Shown here: one piece after another, positions 39,190 through 52,631 of the stretch | Layout of the letters: the number at the start of each line of letters is the position of its first letter | Position numbering within the stretch: position 1 is the first letter of the stretch | Assembly (NCBI RefSeq): GCF_009908265.2 | Contig: NZ_JAAATX020000004.1 | Location: 62,001 to 126,000 of the forward strand | DNA length: 64,000 bases | Source: Paragemmobacter amnigenus | Lineage (GTDB): Bacteria; Pseudomonadota; Alphaproteobacteria; Rhodobacterales; Rhodobacteraceae | Reading direction: 5' to 3' | Position numbers and translations under genes: made by a program | The notes under the pieces: generated by a model | The model's database searches: none | Told to the model about the DNA's origin: nothing | Seen by the model: only the letters and a program-made list of their open reading frames with translations

Positions 39190-40911
39190 TCAGAACAGGA
39201 TGTCGTCCAGCGATTCCTCGGCCACCGCCTGCGGGGGCGGGGCAACGGCCGCAGGTGCCGCGCCCGTCCCGACGATCCCGTCATGGATCGCCCGCTCCTG
39301 CTGCATGGTGCAGCGCGACCGCAGCCCCGCCAGCAGCTCTGCGGCGGCACTGCCCGCGGCAAAGGGCAGCACCGGATCGGCAAGCTGCATTCTCCGCAGG
39401 CCCAGCGACACCGACAGCGTCCGCACATCGGCAAGCGCGATCCGGAACGCCTCCAGCCGTCCGGCGGCCTGCCCCAGCCGGTGGGGCAGTTCCCGCCCCG
39501 CCGCGTCAAAGCCCCGCGCCGTCTCGGACACCACGCTGTCGATCTGCGTCATGGCCCCGTTCAGCGCCTCGGCATCCCCGATGAAGCCCGACAGCGCCGT
39601 CTCCAGCCGGTCCACGCCCGCCTGTCCCGCCTCGCGCGTGCGCGTCCGCGTCTCGCCCAGATTGACCTGCAACCGCTGCACGATCGCGTCGCTTTCATCG
39701 GTCAGCATCCGCAGCCATTGCGCCAGCTCGCGCAGCGACCGCCCCTCCTCGCCCAGCTTGGCGCAGATCAGCACCGCGTTCAGCCCCGACAGACGCACCT
39801 GCTGGGCAATCTGGCGGATCGTCGCCTCGTGCTTCAGGATCAGGTCCAGCCGCCCGCGCAGGTCATCCGCGCAGGCCCGCATCGCCACCAGATGCCGCCG
39901 CACGCGGCCCAGACTGGCCTCCAGCTGCCCCGGCCCGCTGCCCTCGCCCGCAGCGCCGTCGCGGCCCCGTCCGGCCTGCGCGAAATAGAACACCCGGGCG
40001 GCATTCATCGCCTGTTCGGCATTGCGCCGCACCATCTCCAGCGCGGCGACCGAAATGCCCACCTCGTCCTCGGCATCGGTCCGCGCCGCATCGGCCAGAC
40101 CGCGCGCCAGATCGACCAGCACCGCCTCCAGCGCCGCGTCGCCCGTGCTGCCCGCGGCATCCACCACCTCGCGTACCCGCTCCAGCCGCTGGCGGGTGGA
40201 ATCCCCCGCCTGAAGCGCCATGATCAGCCGCGACACCTCGGCAAAGACGTCACGCATCCGCTCGGACAGGTCGGCGCTCATCCGCGTCATCTCGGCCCGC
40301 CCGTCCTGCACCTTCTGGGCGATGCCCGCAAAACGGCTCAGCGTCGGCAGCACCTGCACCAGCAATTCCTGCCGCAACTCCTGCAGGGCAAGGTCCATCG
40401 CCGCCGTATCATGGCCGATGCCCACCATGGCATCCTTGACCTCCTGCAGGATGCCCTCGGCCTCGGAGGCCATGGCCGCCAGCCGCTCGATAAAGGAATT
40501 GACCTGCGGGCGCGGCGGCACCAGCCCGTTGCCCTGTATGCGCGCGTTGATCGACACGTTGGAAATCGTCCGCACCACGCGGTCCAGTTCGCTCACCTCG
40601 ACCCGCACACTGCGGACGGCAGCGCGCAGCCCCTCGCTCTGGCTCAGGAACGTGTCGAAATCGGCGCGGATCACGCCCACATTCCCGAAGGTCTCGGCGA
40701 TCAGCGACCCGAGCTGGCGGCTCGTCTCCTCGCCCAGCGTCACGTCCAGCCGCGCGAAAAGCGCCTCGGTCCCGCGCAGGATCTCGACCGCGCGCGACAG
40801 CCCGTCGCCCGCCTGCACGAAACAGTCCTCGGCAAGGCGCAGCACGCCTGACAGCGCATCCCCGGGGGCCGCGCGGCGCTGCTGGGCGGAAACGGGGGTT
40901 GCGATCGTCAT
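39190..40911 (-). CDS. CheZ-like protein with degenerate receptor hairpins in the che operon
   Basis: The 573-residue soluble, mostly coiled-coil protein is the last gene of the chemotaxis operon. MALQAGDSTRQRLERVREVV (231-250) contains Asp237-x-Thr239-x-Gln241. This is the DxTxQ spacing of the CheZ phosphatase site (D143, T145, Q147 in E. coli) followed by a similar helix. The extreme C-terminus EESLDDILF resembles CheZ's CheY-binding tail. Two segments, NVSINARIQGNG (118-129) and LNAVLICAKLGEEGRSLRELAQWLR (about 374-398), look like degenerate receptor signalling tips. There is no membrane segment. It overlaps cheB by four bases and has GGAG upstream. I infer a CheY-P phosphatase or adaptor; no ortholog was compared. 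Confidence 0.6.
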   Translation of the reverse strand: MTIATPVSAQQRRAAPGDALSGVLRLAEDCFVQAGDGLSRAVEILRGTEALFARLDVTLGEETSRQLGSLIAETFGNVGVIRADFDTFLSQSEGLRAAVRSVRVEVSELDRVVRTISNVSINARIQGNGLVPPRPQVNSFIERLAAMASEAEGILQEVKDAMVGIGHDTAAMDLALQELRQELLVQVLPTLSRFAGIAQKVQDGRAEMTRMSADLSERMRDVFAEVSRLIMALQAGDSTRQRLERVREVVDAAGSTGDAALEAVLVDLARGLADAARTDAEDEVGISVAALEMVRRNAEQAMNAARVFYFAQAGRGRDGAAGEGSGPGQLEASLGRVRRHLVAMRACADDLRGRLDLILKHEATIRQIAQQVRLSGLNAVLICAKLGEEGRSLRELAQWLRMLTDESDAIVQRLQVNLGETRTRTREAGQAGVDRLETALSGFIGDAEALNGAMTQIDSVVSETARGFDAAGRELPHRLGQAAGRLEAFRIALADVRTLSVSLGLRRMQLADPVLPFAAGSAAAELLAGLRSRCTMQQERAIHDGIVGTGAAPAAVAPPPQAVAEESLDDILF

Positions 40912-42017
40912 GCCTGCACTCCTGTCCTGTGACGGCGGGCAAAGGCCATGATCGCCGCCGCCATCCGGTCCAGCGCGACGCTCTGCACCGCGCTGCCCAT
41001 CCTCACCGCCTCGCGCGGCATCCCGTACACAACCGAACTCGCCTCGTCCTGCGCCAGCGTCAGCGCGCCTGCCGCCTTCATCTCGCCCATGCAGCGCGCG
41101 CCGTCATCGCCCATCCCCGTCAGGATGATCCCCAGCGCATTCGCCCCCGCCGCCGTCGCCGCCGACCGGAACAGGACATCCACCGACGGGCGGTGACGGC
41201 TGACATAGGGCCCCTCGACCACGTTGACGCGGTATCCCGAAGGCAGGCGGCGCAGCATCATGTGCCGGTCCCCCGGCGCAATCAGCACCTCGCCCTGTTT
41301 CAGCATCGCGCCATCCACCGCCTCGGACACGCCGACCGCGCACAGCCCGTCCAGCCGCCGCGCGAAGGCTGTGGTAAAGCCTGCGGGCATGTGCTGGACG
41401 ATGGCGATGGCGGGCGCATCCGGCGGCAGCGCTATCAGCAGCGCGCGCAGCGCCTCGGTCCCGCCGGTCGAGGCACCGATCACCACCACGGGCTCGGTCA
41501 CCGGCACCGGCTTGGACAGGTTCGGCGGCGGCAGCACCTCGTCCGCCGACAGCTTCTGCCCCGGCCCGCGCAGCGCGCCCGGCACGCTGCCCCGCCCGCT
41601 GCGCGACTGGCTGGCCGCGCGCAGCGCGTCGCAAATCCGCACCTGCGCCTCGGCCCGCGCGCGTTCATCCCCCGCGCCGGGCTTCAGGATCACCTCCAGC
41701 GCCCCCGCCTCCAGCGCGGCAAGGCTCTGCTCGGACCCGCGCGCGGTGAAGCCGGAACAGACCACCACCGGAATCGGCCGCTGCTCCATGATCCGGCGCA
41801 GGAAGGTCAACCCGTCCATCCCCGGCAGTTCCAGATCCAGCAGGATCACGTCCGGCAGGTTCGCCTTCATCATCTTCGCCGCGGCAAAGGCATCGGGCGC
41901 GGTCCCCATCACGGTCAGCCCCGGGTCCTTCTCGACGATCGACCGCAGCATCGCGCGGGCCGAGGTCGAGTCGTCCACGATCAGCACCTTGACGGGTTCG
42001 GATGGGGTGAGGGGCAT
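40908..42017 (-). CDS. cheB: Chemotaxis response regulator protein-glutamate methylesterase
   Basis: The 369-residue protein has an N-terminal receiver (phospho-acceptor Asp61, LLDLELPGMDG) and a C-terminal methylesterase domain. Its catalytic triad is Ser183 (GASTGGTEA), His209 (VQHMPAGF) and Asp305 (TGMGDDGA). It removes methyl groups from receptors and can deamidate Gln. It lies between cheR and the CheZ-like gene, and its stop overlaps the next start. ATG 42017 is chosen since the receiver begins there; a longer frame is open upstream. Confidence 0.96.
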   Translation of the reverse strand: MPLTPSEPVKVLIVDDSTSARAMLRSIVEKDPGLTVMGTAPDAFAAAKMMKANLPDVILLDLELPGMDGLTFLRRIMEQRPIPVVVCSGFTARGSEQSLAALEAGALEVILKPGAGDERARAEAQVRICDALRAASQSRSGRGSVPGALRGPGQKLSADEVLPPPNLSKPVPVTEPVVVIGASTGGTEALRALLIALPPDAPAIAIVQHMPAGFTTAFARRLDGLCAVGVSEAVDGAMLKQGEVLIAPGDRHMMLRRLPSGYRVNVVEGPYVSRHRPSVDVLFRSAATAAGANALGIILTGMGDDGARCMGEMKAAGALTLAQDEASSVVYGMPREAVRMGSAVQSVALDRMAAAIMAFARRHRTGVQA

Positions 42018-42018
42018 G

Positions 42019-42861
42019 TCAGATCTTCTGGAAAATCGTCGGCTTGACCTGCCGCAGGTTATCGTTACGCACCACCATGCTCTCGGCATGGCCCACCAGC
42101 AGATAGCCACCGGGCTTCAAATGCCGTGCCAACCGCTCCACCACCCGCTCCTTGTCGTCGGGATCGAAATAGATCAGCACGTTGCGCAGGAAGATCACGT
42201 CGACATCGCGGTCGACGGGATAGGTCTCGTCCATCAGGTTCAGATGGCGGAACCGCACATGGCGGCGCAGTTCCGGCACCACGCGCGACTTGCCCGCCAC
42301 CGACGGATCGCGCGACGACAGGAAATAGCGCCGCAGCAGGTCGGTCGGCACCGTGGTCAACTGGTCGTTGCCATAGATCGCCGCCTCGGCCCGTTCCAGC
42401 ATCCGCTGGCTGATATCGGTGCCAAGGATGGCATAGTCGAAGGGCAGCCCCTTGCGCCGCGCCTCCTCCAGCACCATCGCCGCGGTATAGGCCTCGGCCC
42501 CCTCTGACGACGCCGCCGACCACAGCTTCAGCCGCGCCCGCCGCCCCGCACCGGCCTTGCCCGCGATCTCTCGCGCGATGTGGTCGGCCAGATAGTCGAA
42601 ATGGTCCGCCTCGCGGAAGAAGCTGGTGGTGTTGGTGGTGATCAGGTCGATCACCGTGCGCAATTCATCGCCGGGCAGCGCCCCGCCCAGCAGCTTTTCA
42701 AGATAGGCCTCGGTGTCGGGCAGGCCAAAGGCCATGACACGCCGCCGCAGCCGCTGGTCGATCATCTGCACTTTGCTCGGCGGCAGGCTGATGCCGGTGA
42801 TGGACCGGATCAGCTCGCGGAATCGGTCGCCATGGGTGGTGTGGTTCGCCGTCTGGGTCAT
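42019..42861 (-). CDS. cheR: Chemotaxis protein-glutamate O-methyltransferase
   Basis: The 280-residue enzyme methylates receptor glutamates using SAM. The N-terminal helical domain has RLRRRVMAFGLPDTEAYL, then TTNTTSFFREADHF (about 80-93), the SAM loop LWSAASSEGAEAYTAAM, and DVIFLRNVLIYFD near the C-terminus. It sits directly between cheW and cheB, one base from cheB. ATG 42861 begins MTQTANHTT; a longer open frame exists. Confidence 0.95.
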   Translation of the reverse strand: MTQTANHTTHGDRFRELIRSITGISLPPSKVQMIDQRLRRRVMAFGLPDTEAYLEKLLGGALPGDELRTVIDLITTNTTSFFREADHFDYLADHIAREIAGKAGAGRRARLKLWSAASSEGAEAYTAAMVLEEARRKGLPFDYAILGTDISQRMLERAEAAIYGNDQLTTVPTDLLRRYFLSSRDPSVAGKSRVVPELRRHVRFRHLNLMDETYPVDRDVDVIFLRNVLIYFDPDDKERVVERLARHLKPGGYLLVGHAESMVVRNDNLRQVKPTIFQKI

Positions 42862-42865
42862 GGGA

Positions 42866-43357
42866 TCAGGCCACGTCGTCCAGATCGGCCGCGGCCAGAA
42901 CTGGCGCCGCCGCCAGATCGCGGCGGGTGAACAACCGGTCAAGGTCCAGCACGCTCACCACCTCGCCCTTGCAGCGCCCGATGCCCGCGATGGCGCTGCC
43001 CGACCATTGCAGCAGCTCCGCCTCTTCCAGCGGGCGCAGCTCGGGATCGTCCAGCGCGGTCACCTCGATCACGCGGTCGGTCTTGACCCCGATGGTCGCC
43101 CGCGCTCCGCCATGCGTCACCGACACGACAAGGATACGGCTCTGCGCCGTATCCTCGCCCGCCGGACGGCCCAGCAGCCGGCGCAGGTCGACCACGGGGA
43201 TATTGGCCCCCCGCAGGTCGATGATCCCCAGAAGATGGGCCGGCGCGTTGGGCATCGCCGCCACCGGGCGCAGGTCAAGGATTTCCTGCACACGGCTGAC
43301 CGGCACCGCGTAAAGCGACCCTTCCGCGATGAAGGTGACGACGTCCACGCTGCTCAT
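42866..43357 (-). CDS. cheW: CheW-domain protein (second copy)
   Basis: The 163-residue protein is a CheW-like SH3-fold adaptor with FIAEGSLYAVPVSRVQEIL, RPVAAMPNAPAHLLGIIDLRG and the strand VVDLRRLLG. It would link CheA to receptors. Its C-terminus (RRDLAAAPVLAAADLDDVA) is longer than needed for the fold. It lies between the MCP and cheR in one operon. The operon has another CheW (45050), so the two may serve different arrays. ATG 43357 is the conserved start; a longer frame upstream is ignored. Confidence 0.9.
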   Translation of the reverse strand: MSSVDVVTFIAEGSLYAVPVSRVQEILDLRPVAAMPNAPAHLLGIIDLRGANIPVVDLRRLLGRPAGEDTAQSRILVVSVTHGGARATIGVKTDRVIEVTALDDPELRPLEEAELLQWSGSAIAGIGRCKGEVVSVLDLDRLFTRRDLAAAPVLAAADLDDVA

Positions 43358-43367
43358 CGCGTCCCCC

Positions 43368-45038
43368 TCAGGCCGCACGCGTGAAGCGCGCGTCCAGATC
43401 ATCGCCCAGATCGCCCAGGTCGAAGTCGAAGCCGCCGTCACGCCCCGCAGGCTTGGCCTTGCCGCGCGACAAAGCCGCGCCTGCACCGGCATGGTGCGCG
43501 GACTTGCTCCGCACACCCGCCGCAGCGACCGCGCCTTCCTCGACCCGGAAGAACCCGATCGCCTCGGCCAATGCATCGGCCTGGCTCGCCAGTTCCGTCG
43601 CGCTGGCCGACAGCTGTTCCGCGGCCGAGGTGTTTTCCTGCGTGACCTTGTCCAGCTGCTGGATCGACATCGAAATCTGCGACGACCCCGTCGCCAGTTC
43701 GCGCGACGCCACCGAGATCTCGGTCACGAGCGCCGAGGTCTTCTCGATATCCGGCACCAGCCCCAGCAGCATCTCGCCCGCGCTCGCCGCCGTCCGCACC
43801 GTGGAGGCCGACAGGGACGAGATTTCCGCCGCCGCCGTCTGGCTGCGTTCCGCCAGCTTGCGCACTTCCGCCGCCACGACCGCAAAGCCGCGGCCATGCT
43901 CGCCCGCCCGCGCCGCCTCGACCGCGGCGTTCAGCGCCAGCAGGTCGGTCTGACGCGCGATCTCCTGCACGATCATGATGCGGTCCGCGATGGTCTGCAT
44001 CGCCTGCACGGCCTCGGCTACGGCCTTGCCGCTGGCGCGGGCATCGTCCGCCGACTTGGTCGCCATCTTCTCGGTCAGGCTCGCATTCTCGGCGCTCTGC
44101 TTGATGTTGGCGGCCATCTGCTCCACCGCAGCCGAGGATTCCTCGGTGGCCGAGGCCTGCTCGGTCGCGCCCTGGCTCAGCTCTTCGGACGTTGCCGCCA
44201 TCTGGGTCGACCCCGACGCCACGTTGCGAACCGCGCCGTTCACGCTGGTGACCACCTCGCGCAGCTTTGCGACCATGTCGTTCTGCGCGCGCAGCAGGTC
44301 CGCGATCTCGTCATTGCCCTTCACCTCGGCCGTCCGGCGCAGGTCGCCCTCGGCAATCAGAGCGGCCATGTCGACCGATTTCTTCAGCCCGCGCGCGATG
44401 CCGCTCACGATGAAGAAGGCCGACCCCGTCGCCACCAGCGCCGACACGACGAACAGGATGATCATCTGCATCCGCGCCGACTCGAAGGCGGCCGTGTTCG
44501 CCGCCTCGTTGGCGTGGGCACGATCCTTGACGATCATCCGCATGTCGGACAGCGCGGCAACGATCCGCTCCTGCATCGCCTGCGCCTCGGTGTGGTAAAG
44601 CGTGTTGGCCAGATCGCCATTCCCCGCCAGCTCGGTCTGCACGATGCGGACCTGCAACTGGAAGGCCTCCTTGTGGATCGCATCGAATTCGTCCACGGCG
44701 CGCTGCACGTCCTCTTCGGTCGCCGTCTCGCGCAGTTTCGCGATCAGACGGTCCACCTCGGCCGCCTGCGCCTCGAGCTGCTTGCGAAGGTTGGGGATAT
44801 GGTCGGCGGGCGCATTGGGCAGCCCGACAAGGATGCGCCCCACGATCGCGCGGACCTGCATCTTGGCCGTGACGATATCTTCGATCTCCAGCAGCTCCTC
44901 CACATCCTCGTCCATCGCGCGGGAATAGCTTTCCGCGGCAGTGCCAAGGTTGTGGATTGCCAGAACCGTCGATACCGCCCAGAGCACGAAGATCATTAGG
45001 AAGGTGGCGACGAGTCTCGTCTTGATGGTCAGGCGCAT
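43368..45038 (-). CDS. Methyl-accepting chemotaxis protein
   Basis: The 556-residue receptor has two membrane helices (about 8-28 and 191-213) flanking a periplasmic four-helix-type domain of about 160 residues, then HAMP and a signalling domain. The tip contains [19 protein letters not shown] and [13 protein letters not shown]. Ligand is unknown. The C-terminus (ending DARFTRAA) lacks an NWETF-like CheR/CheB-binding pentapeptide. The true start is ATG 45038 with GAGGGAGA upstream. It lies between the two cheW genes. Confidence 0.93.
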
Positions 45039-45049
45039 GGATTTCTCCC

Positions 45050-45538
45050 TCAAGGCTGCGCAGCCAGCGAGCGGCTGGCGAGGTTGGAAAAGATGGTCTC
45101 AAGGTTGGGCAGCAGGATGAAACCCTGCGGCCCGCGATAAAGTCCGGTCAGGTATTCCGGCGGCCACGAACTGGCCGAGGCGGGGACCGGCTCGATCACC
45201 GCCGTCTCGATGGTGGACACCTCGTGCACGGCATCGGCCTCGATGGCCACGACCGTCGCCTCGCCCGCCACCCCGACCTCCAGCACAAGGATGCGGCGGC
45301 GGTCGTCGGCGCCCTCGTCGGGGATGGTCAGCACCTGTTTCAGATCGGCCAGCGGTACCACCGACCCGCGCACGTTCACCACGCCCGGCACATGCGCCCC
45401 GGCCCCCGGCACCCGCGTCACCGGCAGCGGGTCGAGGATCTCGCGCAGCAGATGCGCCGGAATGGCCAGCGTCTGCGTGCCCAGCGACATCGTCACCACC
45501 GTCAGGTTCTTCTGCGGCCTCAGATCATGCAGCTTCAT
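45050..45538 (-). CDS. cheW: CheW adaptor protein (first copy)
   Basis: The 162-residue CheW-fold protein starts [35 protein letters not shown] and continues with [21 protein letters not shown]. It scaffolds CheA and receptors. The start overlaps the cheA stop by four bases (ATGA). The 12-bp gap to the MCP gene downstream supports one transcript. Confidence 0.9.
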
Positions 45539-46668
45539 GCCGCCACCTCCCGCGCGGCGCCGTCCTGCGCCCGCCCCATGCCCACCAGATGCTGTACGTC
45601 AAGGATCAGCGCGACCGACCCGTCGCCAAGGATCGTTGCCCCCGACACGGCCCGCACGCCCGCGTGCAGCTTCGACATCTGCTTGATGACGGTCTGGTTC
45701 GTCCCGATGATCCGGTCGACCACGATGCCCACGCGGCTTTCGCCCGACATCACGATCACCACGTTCTGCGCCGCCCCTGGCTCGCCCCCGCAGTCGAACA
45801 GGTGGCGCAGCCGCAGGAAGGGGACGAATCCCCCGCGGATATCCAGAAAATCCCCCGTCCGCTTGGGCTGTGCCTTTTCGGCGGGCAGTTCCACGATTTC
45901 CTGCACGCTGGCCATGGGCAGGGTGTAGCGTTCGCCCGCCACCTCGATCAGCAGCCCCTCGATGATCGCCAGCGTCAGCGGCAGGCGCAGCGTCACGGTC
46001 GTGCCCTTGCCCTTGCGGCTCTCGATCTCCAGCGATCCGCGCAGGGATTCGATGGTGCGGCGCACCACGTCCATTCCCACGCCCCGCCCCGACAGTTCCG
46101 TCACCTTCTCGGCGGTCGAGAAGCCGGGTTCGAACACCAGCGCAAAGATCTGCGCGTCGGTCAGTTGCGCGTCGGGCGCGATCATCCCCTGCGACACGGC
46201 CTTGGCGCGGATCTTCTCGGGGTCCATCCCCCGCCCGTCATCGCGCACGCGGATCAGCACCTCTGCCCCCGCATGTTCCGCCGACAGCTCGATCAGCCCC
46301 TCGCGCGCCTTGCCCGCGGCCGAGCGTTCGGCCTGCGTCTCCATCCCGTGGTCGATGGCGTTACGCAGGATATGGACCAGCGGATCGGCCAGCTTCTCGA
46401 TCACCGTCTTGTCCAGTTCCGTATCCTCGCCCAGAACCGAGAATTCCACGGGCTTGGCCAGACTGTCCGACAGGTCCAGCACCAGCCGCCGGAACCGCCC
46501 CACCAGCGACCGCATCGGCACCATCCGCATCGTCATCGTCGCATCGCGCAGGCCACCGGCCAGCCGCGTGATCTGCTCCGCCGTGGCGATCAGCGCGGGA
46601 TCGCGGCTTTGCCGCGCCAGTTCGGTCAGCCGCGCCTCGACGATCACCAGCTCGCCCACCGCATCCAT
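45535..46668 (-). CDS. cheA: CheA C-terminal part (frame-disrupted; dimerisation, kinase, CheW-like domains)
   Basis: The 377-residue open part starts at MDAVGELVIVEARLTELARQ, inside the dimerisation domain. It holds the kinase N-box HILRNAIDHGM, the DDGRGMD and GRGVGMDVVR G-boxes, and a CheW-like domain (AGERYTLPMASVQEIVELP). On the same strand its reading frame extends backwards over TIRVPAERLDALMDAVGE, the usual start of the domain, but there the frame does not match the upstream part. Adding one base to the four-G run (plus-strand CCCC at 46707-46710) would join the two parts into one protein of about 658 residues. Whether this is a real mutation, an assembly error or recoding is unknown. 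If real, the protein would lack the phosphorylation domain. Confidence 0.8.
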   Translation of the reverse strand: MDAVGELVIVEARLTELARQSRDPALIATAEQITRLAGGLRDATMTMRMVPMRSLVGRFRRLVLDLSDSLAKPVEFSVLGEDTELDKTVIEKLADPLVHILRNAIDHGMETQAERSAAGKAREGLIELSAEHAGAEVLIRVRDDGRGMDPEKIRAKAVSQGMIAPDAQLTDAQIFALVFEPGFSTAEKVTELSGRGVGMDVVRRTIESLRGSLEIESRKGKGTTVTLRLPLTLAIIEGLLIEVAGERYTLPMASVQEIVELPAEKAQPKRTGDFLDIRGGFVPFLRLRHLFDCGGEPGAAQNVVIVMSGESRVGIVVDRIIGTNQTVIKQMSKLHAGVRAVSGATILGDGSVALILDVQHLVGMGRAQDGAAREVAA

Positions 46669-47510
46669 CAGCGCATCCAGCCGTTCGGCCGGAACGCGGA
46701 TCGTGGCCCCTGCCGTGCCTCGCGCGCGGGTGCGGCAGCCGCCGCCGGAGGGGCGCTCGCCACAGGTCCGGTGTCCGCGTCCGGCGGTGCCGCGTCCTCT
46801 GTCAGCACCGGGGCATCCGTCCCCGCCGCAGGCTCCAGCCGCCAGTCGGCATCGACGAACATGAAAACCTCTTCCACCTGCGCGGCATCCACCCCCGCAG
46901 GCAGGTCCATCTCCCAGCCGATGGCGCAGCCTTCCACGTCCAGCCAGTGCAGCGGCGGCACATCGGAAAGATCGGCCACGATCCCCGCAGCCCCCAGCCC
47001 GCGCAGCTCGTCCAGCACGATCTCGGGCCGCGCGCCCATCGCCAGCGCAGCCCCCGACAGCCGGAAGCGCAGCCGCGACGGTGCGTCCGCCGCAGGCAGG
47101 GCCGCCACCGGTGCCGTGACGGCGGCGGGCGCTTCGACCTCGCCGCCCGCCATCATCGCCTTCAGCCCCGCAAGGATCGCCGCGCGCCGCCCGTCAGGGT
47201 CCGGCTCGCCCTCTACCAGCCCCGGGATCTCGTCCTTGGCGGCCAGCGCCAGACGCAGGATTTCCGCCCCCACGGCCAGTGCGCCCGACCGGATACGGTC
47301 GAAGACCGTTTCGAATTCGTGGATGAAGGCGGCAAGATCGGTAAAGCCGAACATCGCCCCGCTGCCCTTGACCGTATGCAGGTCGCGGAACACCTGATTG
47401 ACCAGCGCCATGTCGCCGGGCCGCTTCTTCAGATCCAGCAGGCCCCGTTCCAGACTTTCCAGAAGATCGCGCAATTCCTCGCGAAAGATCGCCGCCATAT
47501 CGTCGGTCAT
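46668..47510 (-). CDS. cheA: CheA N-terminal part (frame-disrupted; Hpt and P2-like domain)
   Basis: The 280-residue open part starts MTDDMAAIFREELRDLLESL. It carries the Hpt site RDLHTVKGSGAMFGF with phospho-His45. A P2-like middle domain follows (LRFRLSGAALAMGARPEIVLDEL and VFMFVDADWRLEP), then a Pro/Ala linker. It ends with an out-of-frame tail (PRSAFRPNGWMR). In the other frame the same bases read ATIRVPAERLDAL, the conserved start of the dimerisation domain. So it is almost surely half of a normal cheA, split by a one-base loss near 46707. Its ATG overlaps the cheY stop by one base. Confidence 0.85.
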   Translation of the reverse strand: MTDDMAAIFREELRDLLESLERGLLDLKKRPGDMALVNQVFRDLHTVKGSGAMFGFTDLAAFIHEFETVFDRIRSGALAVGAEILRLALAAKDEIPGLVEGEPDPDGRRAAILAGLKAMMAGGEVEAPAAVTAPVAALPAADAPSRLRFRLSGAALAMGARPEIVLDELRGLGAAGIVADLSDVPPLHWLDVEGCAIGWEMDLPAGVDAAQVEEVFMFVDADWRLEPAAGTDAPVLTEDAAPPDADTGPVASAPPAAAAAPAREARQGPRSAFRPNGWMR

Positions 47511-47875
47511 CAGCCCAGCACCTTCTTGATCACGGCCAGCAGCTTGTCCTGCGTAAAGGGCTTGACCATCCAGCCCAGCGCCCCCGCCTCGCGCGCCTGT
47601 GCCTTCAGATCCTCGGCGGAATCCGTCGACAGCACGACGATCGGCACGCCCTTGCCCGCCGGATGCTGGCGCAGCGCGCGGATGAACCCCAACCCGTCAA
47701 GATTGGGCATGTTCTGGTCGGTGATGATCGCATCCACCGGCTGGGCCAGCGCCTTGGCCAACCCGTCCTGTCCGTCGACCGCCTCGATCACGGCATAGCC
47801 GGCCTCTTCCAGCGTCATCGCGATCATCCTGCGGATGGACGGGGAATCATCGACGGTCAGTACTGTCTTGGACAT
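47510..47875 (-). CDS. cheY: CheY response regulator
   Basis: The 121-residue single-domain receiver begins MSKTVLTVDDSPSIRRM, with acidic pair Asp9-Asp10 and phospho-acceptor Asp53 (AIITDQNMPNLDG). Further conserved residues are Ser in VVLSTDS and Lys in WMVKPFTQ. As the only single-domain CheY in the operon it is the likely target of the CheZ-like protein. It overlaps the cheA start by one base and follows the STAS gene by 39 bp. Confidence 0.94.
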   Translation of the reverse strand: MSKTVLTVDDSPSIRRMIAMTLEEAGYAVIEAVDGQDGLAKALAQPVDAIITDQNMPNLDGLGFIRALRQHPAGKGVPIVVLSTDSAEDLKAQAREAGALGWMVKPFTQDKLLAVIKKVLG

Positions 47876-47914: not shown

Positions 47915-48187
47915 TCAGGCGGCAAGGGCATCGCCCAGCGCCAGCCGCGCCGCCATCACGCCCAGCGCCCCTGCCTGTGGCGCATCGATCTGCAAGTTCC
48001 GGTCCAGTTGCCGCGCCGTCCGCTGTGCCGACAGCAGGACCTGCACCACGGCCGTATCCACAGCCGTCAGCCCCGCCGTGCGAAGCACGACATCTCCCTC
48101 GGCCAACGCCCCCAGCAGACGCGCCCGCAGGGCCTCCGCATCGCCCGCGCGCAGATCGCCCTCCAGTTCAAGCACAGCCCCCGACAT
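47915..48187 (-). CDS. STAS domain protein
   Basis: The 90-residue protein resembles anti-anti-sigma-factor STAS domains: VLELEGDLRAGDAEALRARL at the start and VVLRTAGLTAVDTAVVQVLLSAQR around the usual phospho-site, where Thr45 takes the place of Ser. STAS proteins at the head of che operons occur in Alphaproteobacteria; the partner here is not known. It is the first gene of the operon and has GGGGGACGGG before ATG 48187. The frame is open to 48391 but the extension is not STAS-like. Confidence 0.75.
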   Translation of the reverse strand: MSGAVLELEGDLRAGDAEALRARLLGALAEGDVVLRTAGLTAVDTAVVQVLLSAQRTARQLDRNLQIDAPQAGALGVMAARLALGDALAA

Positions 48188-48347
48188 CCCGTCCCCCTTT
48201 CGCGCATTGCGGGACAGACCCGCCCCATCGCTTGCAGGAACGGCGCAAGGCCGCGTTCTGTTAGGGGAAAAATTGATCAGCCGGTCGCGGATCACCGGCC
48301 CGCGGTCCGACCCTACGCCCGCAGGGTCGCGCCGCGCCGTCCGGTCG

Positions 48348-49616
48348 CTAGACGACCACCACGCGGTTCCGGCCCTGATCCTTGGCCGCATACATGGCGC
48401 TGTCCACCTGCGCGAAGGTCTCGTCCAGCGACCGGTCGGGCGACAGCATCGCCACCCCGAAGGACATGGTCAGCCGTCCGTATTGCGGATCGACCTGTTC
48501 CTCGATCACGACCTTCATCCGCTCGGCGAATTCGGTCGCGGCAGTGATGTCCGTGTCGAAAAGCAGGATCATGAACTCGTCCCCGCCCCAGCGCACCACC
48601 GCATCCTCGCGCCGCGACTCGATCCGCAGCACGCGCGCCACGCGCTGGATGGCACGGTCGCCCACCAGATGGCCGTGGATGTCGTTGATATCCTTGAACC
48701 GGTCCAGATCGCACATCACCAGCGCGGCCTGCGCCCCCTGCGTCTTGACCTGCACATGGGCGTGCTGCAACAGCGCCTCGCCGCTGCGCCGGTTCAGCAG
48801 CCGCGTCAGCAGATCGGTCGAGGCCGCCTCGGACAGTTCGCGGTTCTGCAGGATGTGCAGCGTCACATCCTTTGCCACCACGATGATATCCGCCTCGGCA
48901 GCCGGTCCGGCATCGAAACGGCAGGCGGTCAGGTCCAGATAGCAGATCTCCTCGTCCAGCCCGCGGAACGGCACGATCCCGCGCGCCGTGGCCAGCGCGT
49001 TGCCCGCACGGGCCTGCTCCAGCAGTTGCGCGGCCACCGCGAAATCCCCCACCACAAGGTCGCGCAGATTGACCCGCTGCCGGCATCTGAGAAGCGAGGT
49101 AAAGGCCACATTGGCAAAGGTCAGGGTATAGTCCGTATCGATCGTGAAGATCGGTTCCGGTATCACGTGCAGCGCCTTGTAAAGCGCCGAAAAACTGTTC
49201 AGCCCGAAAGGCTTGTCCGTGATGTCCGACTGGATCGACACATAGTATTGCGGCTCGCCGGCATCGTTCAGCACCGGCGTGACGGTCCAGTGCACCAGAT
49301 AGCGTTCGCCCGTCTTGCGATAATTGTAGGCCACCCCGTCAAAGCCCCGCCCCTCGCGGATCGACTTCGACAGATGGGCGATCACCTCGGGGTCCGTCTC
49401 GGGCCCCTGCAACATCGACAGCGACCGTCCGACCAGTTCGTGCAGCTCGTATCCCGTCATCCGGCAGAAGGCGGGATTGGCATAGATCACCGGATAGCCG
49501 GGGTCCGCGCTGGTGATCACAAGCGAATTCCATATCTGGCGGATCGCCATCCTGATCGCGTCCGAAATGGCATCGGGCATGTCCGCACCGGCCAGCTCTT
49601 GGGTTCCGCCTGTCAT
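48348..49616 (-). CDS. Diguanylate cyclase with LOV-like PAS domain lacking the photoactive Cys
   Basis: The 422-residue protein is cytoplasmic. Residues about 28-133 follow the LOV-PAS pattern: NPAFCRMTGY (47-56), GRSLSMLQGPETDP (63-76), NYRKTGERYLVHW (98-110). In LOV proteins the second motif is GRNCRFLQG with the flavin-bonding Cys; here Leu66 takes its place. A second PAS-like domain (about 145-255) follows, then a GGDEF domain with GGDEF at 344-348 and an inhibitory RRED site at 335-338, five residues before. So it should make c-di-GMP with product inhibition. Its start overlaps the previous gene's stop (ATGA), so it is the third gene of a c-di-GMP operon. Confidence 0.88.
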   Translation of the reverse strand: MTGGTQELAGADMPDAISDAIRMAIRQIWNSLVITSADPGYPVIYANPAFCRMTGYELHELVGRSLSMLQGPETDPEVIAHLSKSIREGRGFDGVAYNYRKTGERYLVHWTVTPVLNDAGEPQYYVSIQSDITDKPFGLNSFSALYKALHVIPEPIFTIDTDYTLTFANVAFTSLLRCRQRVNLRDLVVGDFAVAAQLLEQARAGNALATARGIVPFRGLDEEICYLDLTACRFDAGPAAEADIIVVAKDVTLHILQNRELSEAASTDLLTRLLNRRSGEALLQHAHVQVKTQGAQAALVMCDLDRFKDINDIHGHLVGDRAIQRVARVLRIESRREDAVVRWGGDEFMILLFDTDITAATEFAERMKVVIEEQVDPQYGRLTMSFGVAMLSPDRSLDETFAQVDSAMYAAKDQGRNRVVVV

Positions 49617-51661
49617 CCCGCACCTCGGCCCGGATCGGTGTTCCAGTTGATTTTGTGTGGTTTTCCAAACAGATAACCCTGCACATACCGCACCCCGAGC
49701 GAGGCAAGGATCGCACTGTCCTCCTCGGTCTCGACCCCTTCGACCACCAGGCTCGCCCCGATCGATCCGGTCAGTTCGACGATCAGGCGGATGATGTGCC
49801 GGCGCCGACCGGACTCGCGCAGTCCGGCGATCAGCGACTTGTCGGCCTTGACGGTGGCGAAATCGAACGAGGCGAGACGCTCCAGCCCCGAACCTTCCTT
49901 CCCGAAATCGTCCAGATAGACGAGGAACCCGCAGTCATGGATCTTCGCAAGGTTCCGCGCGATCTGGTCGGGCTGCATCTTTTCCAGATAGGGGGTTTCC
50001 GTGACCTCGATGGCGATGCGGTAGCCTTCTCTCACCAGCTCCAGCAGAACAGGCGTCAGCGCGTTGTTCTCGAACTGGTTGAACAGGTCGAACGGATCAT
50101 AATTGAACGAGAAATAGGGCGCATCCGCCCCGTCGGGCGGGCGGGGTGGCAGGGCCGCGCGCACGATCGCCGCCATGTCCTGCACCAGCCCCTTGTCACG
50201 CAGCGCCGCGATGAAATGCGTGATGAAGGACGGCAAGGGAACGAACCTGCCATCCGGTCGCTGCCAGCGCACCAACGCCTCGTAGCCGACGGGCAGGCCC
50301 GACCCGATGGCAACGATGGGCTGCAGGTGAAAGCAGATCTCGCGCGCACGGATTGCCTGCACCAGATCCATCAGCTTGGGTGTCTCGGTGCTGTATCCCA
50401 GCTGCTCCAGCAGATGCGCGTCCGCCTCGACCGCGCGGTTCTTGCCCGTGGCCTTGGCATAGCGCAGGGCCATGTCGGCCCGCTCGGACGCCACGGTGAT
50501 ATTGTCACCCCGCCGCAGCAGCCCGAAGCCCAGCGATATGGTGCAAAAGGCTACCGCATCGTCAAAGCGCATCTCCGTGGCCGCGATGCGTTCCACCGCC
50601 TGCGCGAAGAAGGCCTGCGCCGACGGCCCCGTCGCCTCCACCGGGACGAGGATCAGGAAATCCTCGCCGCCAAAGCGGCAGATGACCTCGGCCTCGGGAA
50701 TGACGGACAGCAGGTTCCGCGCCAGTCGGCCAAGGACAAGATCCCCGACCCTGTGCCCGTGGCTGGCATTGATCGACTTGAAATCGTCGATATCCGTTAT
50801 GGCAAGGTAATAGTCCTTTTCGCGGTGGTCATGCGCGTAAAGCTCCTGAAACCGCGGCCGTCGCATCGCGCCGGTCAGGTTGTCGTAATGCGCCTCGCTC
50901 CGCAGCGCCTCGGTCGTCCGGTTCAGTTGCGCGATGAACAGGTTCAGCACCCGCGAGAAGAAGCTGAACTCGTCCTGTCGCGGATCGACCAGCGGCTTCA
51001 TCTGGCCGGTCGCGGGATTGCTTTCGAAATAGCTGGCGATATGCCCGATCCGTCTGGACAGAAAGCGCCGCATCAGCAGCCAGAAGCACGACACGCTTCC
51101 CACAAAGACGAAACCGGCAAAGATGACGGGCTTCACGAAGGTCTGGATAAGCTGAGCGTTCTGGCTTTGCGTGCTCATCACGACGTAAAGGTCGCTGCAG
51201 GTTTCCTTCAGCGCAAAGGCGGGCGAGACGGTCGCGACCGGCAGGCAGATGCTCGTGCGGGTGAACAGCCGGTCCCCGTGCCATGTCAGGACGGCCGAAC
51301 TCTTCTGGCTCGGGTCGATCCCGAGCGAGGCCTTCAACTCGTCCACCGGCACCGCCGACCGGCGCGGCGAGGCCGAGGCGATCACCTCCCCGCCATTGAT
51401 CAGGAAGGCATCGACAAACCCGTCGCGCCCCTGCATCGCGGCCAGACTGTGCCGCAACTCGCGCATCGTGTTCTGACTGAGCTGGCTTTCCAGCAGGACG
51501 CGCAGCGAAAAGGTCATCTCGAGCAGTTCCTGCTCGGTCACGCGCGACATCCACGAATAGGCCGACTGGATCACCAGCGCCATGATGGCAGCATTCGCCG
51601 ATACGAAGATCGCCGACATGAGGACCGTCATGGTCGTGCTGAACCCCGGCCGGATCCGCAT
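49613..51661 (-). CDS. Membrane GGDEF-EAL protein with periplasmic sensor region
   Basis: The 682-residue protein has two membrane helices (about 11-35 and 178-198) that enclose a periplasmic domain of about 140 residues. GGEDF (331-335) replaces the usual GG(D/E)EF, and no RxxD inhibitory site is visible, so cyclase activity is doubtful. The EAL domain keeps YEALVRW (459-465), E551 in EVTET, DDFG (583-586), VKADKS (603-608) and EGVE (640-643). It is thus probably a c-di-GMP phosphodiesterase. Its start is one base after the binding-protein gene's stop (TGAGATG), and its stop overlaps the next start. The pairing resembles NspS-MbaA. Confidence 0.88.
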   Translation of the reverse strand: MRIRPGFSTTMTVLMSAIFVSANAAIMALVIQSAYSWMSRVTEQELLEMTFSLRVLLESQLSQNTMRELRHSLAAMQGRDGFVDAFLINGGEVIASASPRRSAVPVDELKASLGIDPSQKSSAVLTWHGDRLFTRTSICLPVATVSPAFALKETCSDLYVVMSTQSQNAQLIQTFVKPVIFAGFVFVGSVSCFWLLMRRFLSRRIGHIASYFESNPATGQMKPLVDPRQDEFSFFSRVLNLFIAQLNRTTEALRSEAHYDNLTGAMRRPRFQELYAHDHREKDYYLAITDIDDFKSINASHGHRVGDLVLGRLARNLLSVIPEAEVICRFGGEDFLILVPVEATGPSAQAFFAQAVERIAATEMRFDDAVAFCTISLGFGLLRRGDNITVASERADMALRYAKATGKNRAVEADAHLLEQLGYSTETPKLMDLVQAIRAREICFHLQPIVAIGSGLPVGYEALVRWQRPDGRFVPLPSFITHFIAALRDKGLVQDMAAIVRAALPPRPPDGADAPYFSFNYDPFDLFNQFENNALTPVLLELVREGYRIAIEVTETPYLEKMQPDQIARNLAKIHDCGFLVYLDDFGKEGSGLERLASFDFATVKADKSLIAGLRESGRRRHIIRLIVELTGSIGASLVVEGVETEEDSAILASLGVRYVQGYLFGKPHKINWNTDPGRGAG

Positions 51662-51662
51662 C

Positions 51663-52631
51663 TCAGCGACCGGTTCCGTGCGGCTCGATCCGGTCCAGCA
51701 GATCCGGCAAGGCCAGATCGCTGCGCCCGGTCTCCACAAGCCAGCCATGGATGCCCGACACCAGCCTTCGGAAACTCTCCGCGGCAAGGATCGCCTCGCC
51801 CTCCGCCGCCGTGGGAAGCGTCAGCCCGTCATACTGGGCATAGACATCGTCCTCGGCCACCCCCAGCCCCGCGGCAAGGGCGGGGACCAGTTCGGGATCC
51901 TTCGCGCGGATGCGCCCTGCAATCTCTTGAAAGGATCGCATCATCGCCGCGACATCGCCCTGCATCCGGTCGTCGTAACGCTCTTTGCGGACGACCAGCA
52001 CGTCGATGATCGCAGGGCCCAGCTGCGACGAATCGAAGATCGGCGCACACCCCGCCGCCACAAGATCAGAGGCAAAGGGGTTGAATGTCAGGAAGGTATC
52101 CGCCGTCCCCGCGACCAAGAGGTCCAGATGCTCGTCGACCGAGGCATTGACGCGCGTCACGTCCGACAGGGCCAGACCGTTCCGCGACAGATAAAGATAC
52201 AGGAAATATTCGCCCAGCGCGGTGCTCTCATGGGCATAGACGCGGTCGCGCACTGCCGCATCCGGCGTGGTGGTGCAGATCACATCCGCCCCGCTGGAGA
52301 TGTCCGTCACCGCGACGACGACCAGCTCCGTCCCCCGCGCGGCCGAGGAGACCGCCTCGTCCAGCGTCAGCGCCGCCATGTCAACCAGCCCGATCTCGAG
52401 CGCCGACGTCACCTCGGACGCGTTCCAGTACCGCACGAGCTCCAGCGGCCGCGACGCATCGGAGGGCGCATGCGCCCCGATCAGGTAAAGCGGCTCATAT
52501 CCCGGCCAGACATTGGTGGCGATGCGTATTTCGTCGTGGTTGGCGTGGGCGGATTCTGAGGTCAGTACGACAGTGCACGCTGTCGCAAAAACTGAGAAAC
52601 CAGCATGTGGCCAAAACCGCTGAATAAACAT
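51663..52631 (-). CDS. Periplasmic substrate-binding protein (NitT/TauT-like), no ABC partner
   Basis: The 322-residue protein has a signal peptide (MFIQRFWPHAGFSVFATACTV... with a cleavage site after AHA) and a NitT/TauT-like binding fold: DEIRIATNVWPGYEPLYLIGAH, VDMAALTLDEAVSSAARG and KASVDEH-type segments. Nearby genes include no permease or ATPase. Instead its stop is followed after one base by the GGDEF-EAL gene, so it more likely delivers a ligand signal to that protein than serves transport. ATG 52631 is favoured since the signal peptide starts there; a GTG- or ATG-led longer frame reaches 52664. Confidence 0.8.
   Translation of the reverse strand: MFIQRFWPHAGFSVFATACTVVLTSESAHANHDEIRIATNVWPGYEPLYLIGAHAPSDASRPLELVRYWNASEVTSALEIGLVDMAALTLDEAVSSAARGTELVVVAVTDISSGADVICTTTPDAAVRDRVYAHESTALGEYFLYLYLSRNGLALSDVTRVNASVDEHLDLLVAGTADTFLTFNPFASDLVAAGCAPIFDSSQLGPAIIDVLVVRKERYDDRMQGDVAAMMRSFQEIAGRIRAKDPELVPALAAGLGVAEDDVYAQYDGLTLPTAAEGEAILAAESFRRLVSGIHGWLVETGRSDLALPDLLDRIEPHGTGR

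Follow-up and report, generated by a model that had tools for sequence, protein, structure and literature searches.

The window examined here is a 64,000-nucleotide stretch of Paragemmobacter amnigenus DNA (assembly GCF_009908265.2, contig NZ_JAAATX020000004.1, positions 62,001 to 126,000 of the forward strand), and positions below are those of the window. It carries a chemotaxis operon on the minus strand in the order STAS-CheY-CheA-CheW-MCP-CheW-CheR-CheB-X, where X, the subject of this work, is a protein of 573 amino acids whose ATG overlaps the stop of cheB. The features are as follows.

47915-48391, minus strand: STAS-domain protein, first gene of the operon; start uncertain
47510-47875, minus strand: cheY, whose product is the proposed substrate of X
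45535-47510, minus strand: cheA, read as two overlapping ORFs (46668-47510 and 45535-46668) because of a frame break
45050-45538, minus strand: cheW (first)
43368-45053, minus strand: chemoreceptor (MCP)
42866-43576, minus strand: cheW (second); ORF as listed, the true start probably lying further in
42019-42942, minus strand: cheR
40908-42068, minus strand: cheB (receiver and methylesterase); start uncertain
39190-40911, minus strand: gene X, TlpC-family soluble helical protein, 573 amino acids, last gene of the operon
40510-40572, minus strand: first degenerate receptor-tip-like segment of X (residues about 114-134, containing VSINARIQGN), at a predicted helix turn 128-134; the evidence is weak
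40186-40215, minus strand: LQAGDSTRQR, residues 233-242 of X, with the DxxxQ motif D237/Q241
39691-39828, minus strand: second degenerate receptor-tip segment (residues about 362-407, containing GLNAVLICAKLGEEGRSL), with the invariant N378
39280-39312, minus strand: CTMQQERAIHD, residues 534-544, matching the family motif YTMxxERxIHD with invariant E539 and R540; no role is known to us
39193-39219, minus strand: C-terminal peptide EESLDDILF, residues 565-573, resembling CheZ C-terminal tails

Directly upstream of the operon on the same strand (48348-51787) are two GGDEF-type proteins, judged by eye, the second apparently with an EAL domain. The break in cheA lies in the 46668 region; in a related locus, L065, the same stretch reads through in one frame, and sequencing error, decay and frameshifting all remain possible. 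No FlhA and no FliM were found in the genome that carries the window, although it is rated 99.99% complete and 16 of 19 genomes of the genus have FlhA. Of the 14 genomes of the genus that bear X, 13 have FlhA. Chemotaxis may therefore be decaying in this strain, or the assembly is incomplete.

Conservation of X and its place in the TlpC family

A preliminary description, made from the sequence alone, drew attention to a soluble coiled-coil protein at the end of the operon that combines D237-x-T239-x-Q241 in a helix like the CheZ active site, a terminal EESLDDILF like the CheZ CheY-binding peptide and two degenerate receptor-tip segments, with no other phosphatase in the operon. We find that this observation is correct. 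The maximum 19-residue mean hydropathy of X is 1.23, too low for a membrane span, and an AF2 model is helical throughout (mean pLDDT 84.4, pTM 0.62). CheZ, CheC and CheX were found neither in the operon nor elsewhere in the genome.

A DxxxQ match is in itself no more than chance, since X carries four where 1.9 are expected from composition. Conservation separates them. In an alignment of 36 rows, with identities to X down to 16%, D237/Q241 is kept in 36 of 36, while the other three pairs are kept in 1, 1 and 2. Nine columns after M1 are identical wherever a letter is present, with at least 34 of 36 letters: Q234, G236, D237, Q241, R242, N378, E539, R540 and F573, the last with two gaps. In 28 homologues found by whole-protein search and not seeded on the motif, QxGDxxxQR is kept in 28 and the end is hydrophobic followed by F, L or M in 28, one of them with a trailing G; the partial matches L028, L030 and L031 were left out. 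A scan of named genomes gave 80 loci, of which 78 have a closed ORF over 480 amino acids (L086 and L097, cut or broken, were left out). In these 78, [LM]QxGDxxxQR is kept in 78, YTMxxERxIHD in 76 and the hydrophobic end with F, L or M in 74, the exceptions being L112, L114, L118 and L133. The scan is biased, however, because the motif was one of its two seeds and only the best 80 of 165 relatives were kept. Loss of D237/Q241 or of the tail in orthologues had been set beforehand as grounds for rejecting the phosphatase reading, and the outcome was in its favour.

The named homologues come, among others, from Tabrizicola, Rhodobacter, Gemmobacter, Paracoccus, Marivivens, Cereibacter, Devosia, Mesorhizobium, Rhodomicrobium, Bradyrhizobium, Sphingomonas and Roseomonas. 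A cheB match lies directly upstream on the same strand, within 900 bp, in 77 of the 80 named loci, and cheB is the neighbour in 26 of the 28 rows outside the named set (all but L027 and L029). In the Rhodoplanes tepidamans locus (L132) the homologue faces cheB convergently instead of following it. A record titled Arthrobacter sp. TPD3018 (L139) carries a che locus almost like that of Sphingomonas aquatilis (L140), and its title may be wrong. Matches were found in 14 of 19 genomes of the genus, and full-length ones (E<1e-30) in 13 of 196 genomes of the order, taken from the named near relatives to be Rhodobacterales, and in 3 of 241 of the class. The last two counts are lower bounds, since only 5 to 7 candidates per genome were scored. 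Many of the matches in the order start after position 200 of the profile and are ordinary receptors hit through the tip; these were not counted. A single-protein search of 198 genomes of the family found 16 with a match, some partial, and a search of plasmids with X found none.

The closest known protein, which the preliminary description did not recognize, is TlpC of Rhodobacter (Cereibacter) sphaeroides, encoded by the last gene of CheOp2. Four published tlpC primers (PMC3358273) match one genome, G069, without mismatch, in cheB, at the start codon and downstream of the X homologue (L017), and the start codon so defined gives exactly 580 amino acids, the length stated for TlpC (PMC3964821). 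X is homologous to it over the full length, with 36-38% identity, and the homologue has the same motif and tail (LQAGDSARQR, DLADIFF). The order cheY-cheA-cheW-cheW-cheR-cheB-tlpC, found in loci L220 and L082-L084, is that listed for cheOp2 (PMC7277832); the window operon has in addition an MCP between the two cheW genes. Genome G069 has a second, more distant family member (L029; locus L219, 10087-11760, minus strand) with the same DxxxQ motif, which lies among receptor genes upstream of another cheA and is perhaps TlpS of CheOp1.

TlpC has been treated as a cytoplasmic receptor-like protein. It was named in 2002 and is described as lacking a HAMP domain, a methylation region and the glycine turn (PMC3964821; PMC6829392). 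It lies in the cytoplasmic cluster, although the other CheOp2 proteins are polar, and receptor-type roles have been proposed for it (PMC10924463). In two-hybrid tests it interacted with itself, CheW4 and CheA3 but not with TlpT, no CheY was among the partners in the table that we consulted, and the cluster became more diffuse on deletion (PMC6829392). According to one review, deletion of any gene of CheOp2 or CheOp3 led to loss of chemotaxis (PMC10924463), whereas PMC3358273 calls TlpC non-essential, without saying for what. Among the open-licence papers that we searched, none was recognized as reporting a phosphatase motif or activity for TlpC.

Comparison with chemoreceptors and with CheZ

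X has no Pfam match above a cut-off and no NCBIfam match at E<=0.01. A match to DUF948 (E 3e-6, below its cut-off) was judged to be a coiled-coil match, and the MCP signalling domain scored 16.6 bits against a cut-off of 34.6. A distant relationship to receptors is nevertheless clear from profile comparison, in which X matches solved chemoreceptors over about positions 279-483 with E of about 6e-18. The N-terminal half aligns in register with a receptor tip, but weakly (domain E 0.03-0.045). The column aligned to the conserved tip glutamate of receptors, residue 382, holds no Glu in 36 of 36 rows, and no W-x-x-F tail is present in 36 rows.

The AF2 models show long helices with turns at 128-134 and 256-258. 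We infer two receptor-like hairpins in tandem, with tips near N122 and N378 and with the D/Q site, the ER motif and the tail towards the other end, a placement taken from helix boundaries. The model shows no turn at the second tip, and this part of the arrangement is uncertain. The motif is helical in both models, although the full-length model breaks the helix at residue 233 where a fragment model with more sequences has one helix, 135-255. Past position 235 the hydrophobic residues lie opposite D237/Q241; before residue 234 they lie on the same side as D237, so that exposure of the site depends on a bend there. Searches with Foldseek and VIA-align, using the full model and the 88-316 fragment, returned helical bundles, BAR domains and receptor hairpins. 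CheZ was not among the matches inspected, which excludes nothing for a coiled coil.

The resemblance to CheZ holds for the motif and the tail only. We compared X with 30 alphaproteobacterial CheZ ORFs, picked with a motif pattern from CheZ loci of the class. The block DxTxQR[IL]xxV shares more than D and Q with these, having A at D-5, T at D+2, R at D+5 and V at D+9. With a CheZ position matrix the X site is reached by 8 of 2264 other DxxxQ windows and by 32 of 676,339 background windows, and with a harsher matrix by 20 and 61, respectively, in both cases with 81 X-like ORFs removed from the background. The 12 highest of the 32, those that we inspected, are of the type ISAACREQDIGASQ, which we recognize as receptor helices. 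The motif site is the most CheZ-like site of the protein in 26 of 36 rows, but in 10 another site scores higher, and with the harsher matrix TlpC of G069 is among the latter. In its score for resemblance to alphaproteobacterial CheZ tails, the X tail is matched by 6 of 1842 background C-termini, a background that includes spurious ORFs. No CheZ-like tail is present in L112, L118 and L133. The N-terminal peptide of FliM was considered as a yardstick for the tail, but four readable N termini in the genus (KLSAG[ED]VAALVGG) do not resemble it.

There is no match to the CheZ domain model (PF04344) at E<=1 for X or at E<=0.01 in 36 members. An HMM-HMM comparison with CheZ at first looked promising (score 37.4, E 6e-4, motif helices in register), but reversed CheZ scores 37.3 and reversed X 35.0. 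On a trimmed CheZ set the score is 35.9 against 41.0 and 35.8, and on gap-filtered alignments 21.9 against 29.6 for reversed CheZ and at most 27.5 for 60 block-permuted X alignments. We do not use this comparison as evidence of homology. CheZ proteins are mostly of 200-250 amino acids with one hairpin per subunit, whereas the 78 named homologues have 554-585 and X has more helices than one hairpin. X possibly works like CheZ; on these tests it is not a member of the CheZ family. Nor does X match CheC or CheX at E<=1.

A possible CheY-P phosphatase

No CheZ match was found in 196 of 196 sampled genomes of the order and no CheC or CheX in 19 of 19 genomes of the genus, with positive controls. 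In the class CheZ is common (97 of 241), and two of the three genomes there with a full-length X (G407 and G413) also have CheZ matches, so that a strict replacement of CheZ by X is not supported. R. sphaeroides has no CheZ homologue and is stated to require an alternative mechanism; CheA3 acts on CheY6-P, and by 2010 no phosphatase had been identified for the other regulators, with half-times of 36 and 38 s for CheY3-P and CheY4-P (PMC2924250). The same paper accounts for fast decay by a phosphate sink, so a further phosphatase is possible but not demanded. Three CheA3 candidates (L151, L153 and L154), identified by Hpt match, size and place only, carry a kept DxAAQ (DTAAQ, DAAAQ), a possible DxxxQ for the known activity on CheY6-P in a different protein context. 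There is a precedent in CheT of Sinorhizobium meliloti, an alphaproteobacterial che-operon protein with DXXXQ and without significant sequence similarity to known chemotaxis proteins, which is reported to resemble CheZ in predicted structure and to enhance dephosphorylation of one CheY-P (PMC12654446).

The preliminary description had suggested a CheY-P phosphatase that evolved from, or is fused to, receptor-like hairpins, or else an adaptor competing for CheW; our results support this interpretation in part, and receptor ancestry of the scaffold is supported. We consider it about as likely as not that X is a CheY-P phosphatase built on tandem receptor-like hairpins. In this model the receptor-tip ends would hold the protein in the CheW/CheA array, which the interactions of TlpC with CheW4 and CheA3 would allow, and the flexible acidic-hydrophobic C-terminal peptide would capture CheY-P as the CheZ tail does. 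D237 and Q241, on a long helix towards the other end of the first hairpin, would act on the CheY active site as the Asp/Gln pair of CheZ does, in which Gln places the attacking water, so that CheY-P made by the operon's own CheA would be switched off at the array. The sequence, its conservation, the operon position, the identity with the TlpC family, the receptor relationship and the lack of detectable CheZ, CheC and CheX in this genome rest on direct evidence from our analysis, whereas CheY binding, catalysis, anchoring of X in the array and the hairpin arrangement are inferences. The residues G236, R242, E539 and R540 are invariant yet belong to no CheZ pattern that we know, and the block could be structural.

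The strongest alternative, though less likely, is that X is a degenerate receptor or array adaptor only, with QxGDxxxQR a structural bend or polar layer in the long helix and the tail a docking peptide for another array protein. The receptor relationship of both halves, the invariant G236 and R242 within the block, the helix break at residue 233 in the full-length model, the change of hydrophobic side at this point and the behaviour of TlpC in two-hybrid and deletion experiments are consistent with this. However, the missing tip glutamate and the absence from TlpC of a HAMP domain, methylation region and glycine turn speak against it, and a purely structural role does not predict an invariant D-xxx-Q pair together with a CheZ-like tail. 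It is more doubtful that X binds CheY-P through tail and motif without catalysis, as a sensor, sink or feedback adaptor at the array. The tail and D/Q site fit binding, CheT is said to bind CheR as well (PMC12654446) and phosphate-sink logic was modelled for R. sphaeroides (PMC2924250), but an invariant D and Q at i/i+4 is the pattern of auxiliary phosphatases and binding alone needs no such pair. That X is merely a relic here, its conservation reflecting only motile relatives, is improbable despite the frame-broken cheA and the missing FlhA and FliM, since X and the operon genes other than cheA are open in frame and a missing contig or sequencing error is not excluded, and it would concern this copy and not the family.

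The role of TlpC is still described as receptor-like and uncertain. A wider reading, to which we give slightly less than even weight, is that the TlpC family is an independent kind of CheY-P phosphatase, with a CheZ-type Asp/Gln active site and a CheY-catching tail on a single-chain pair of chemoreceptor hairpins, so that the off-switch is built into the array scaffold. It would supply the unidentified phosphatase for CheY3-P and CheY4-P in R. sphaeroides, a model chemotaxis species without CheZ, and for the cognate CheY-P in related alphaproteobacteria. If this is true, receptors would have given rise to a signal-terminating enzyme, and cytoplasmic 'receptors' of this type should be re-read as possible enzymes.
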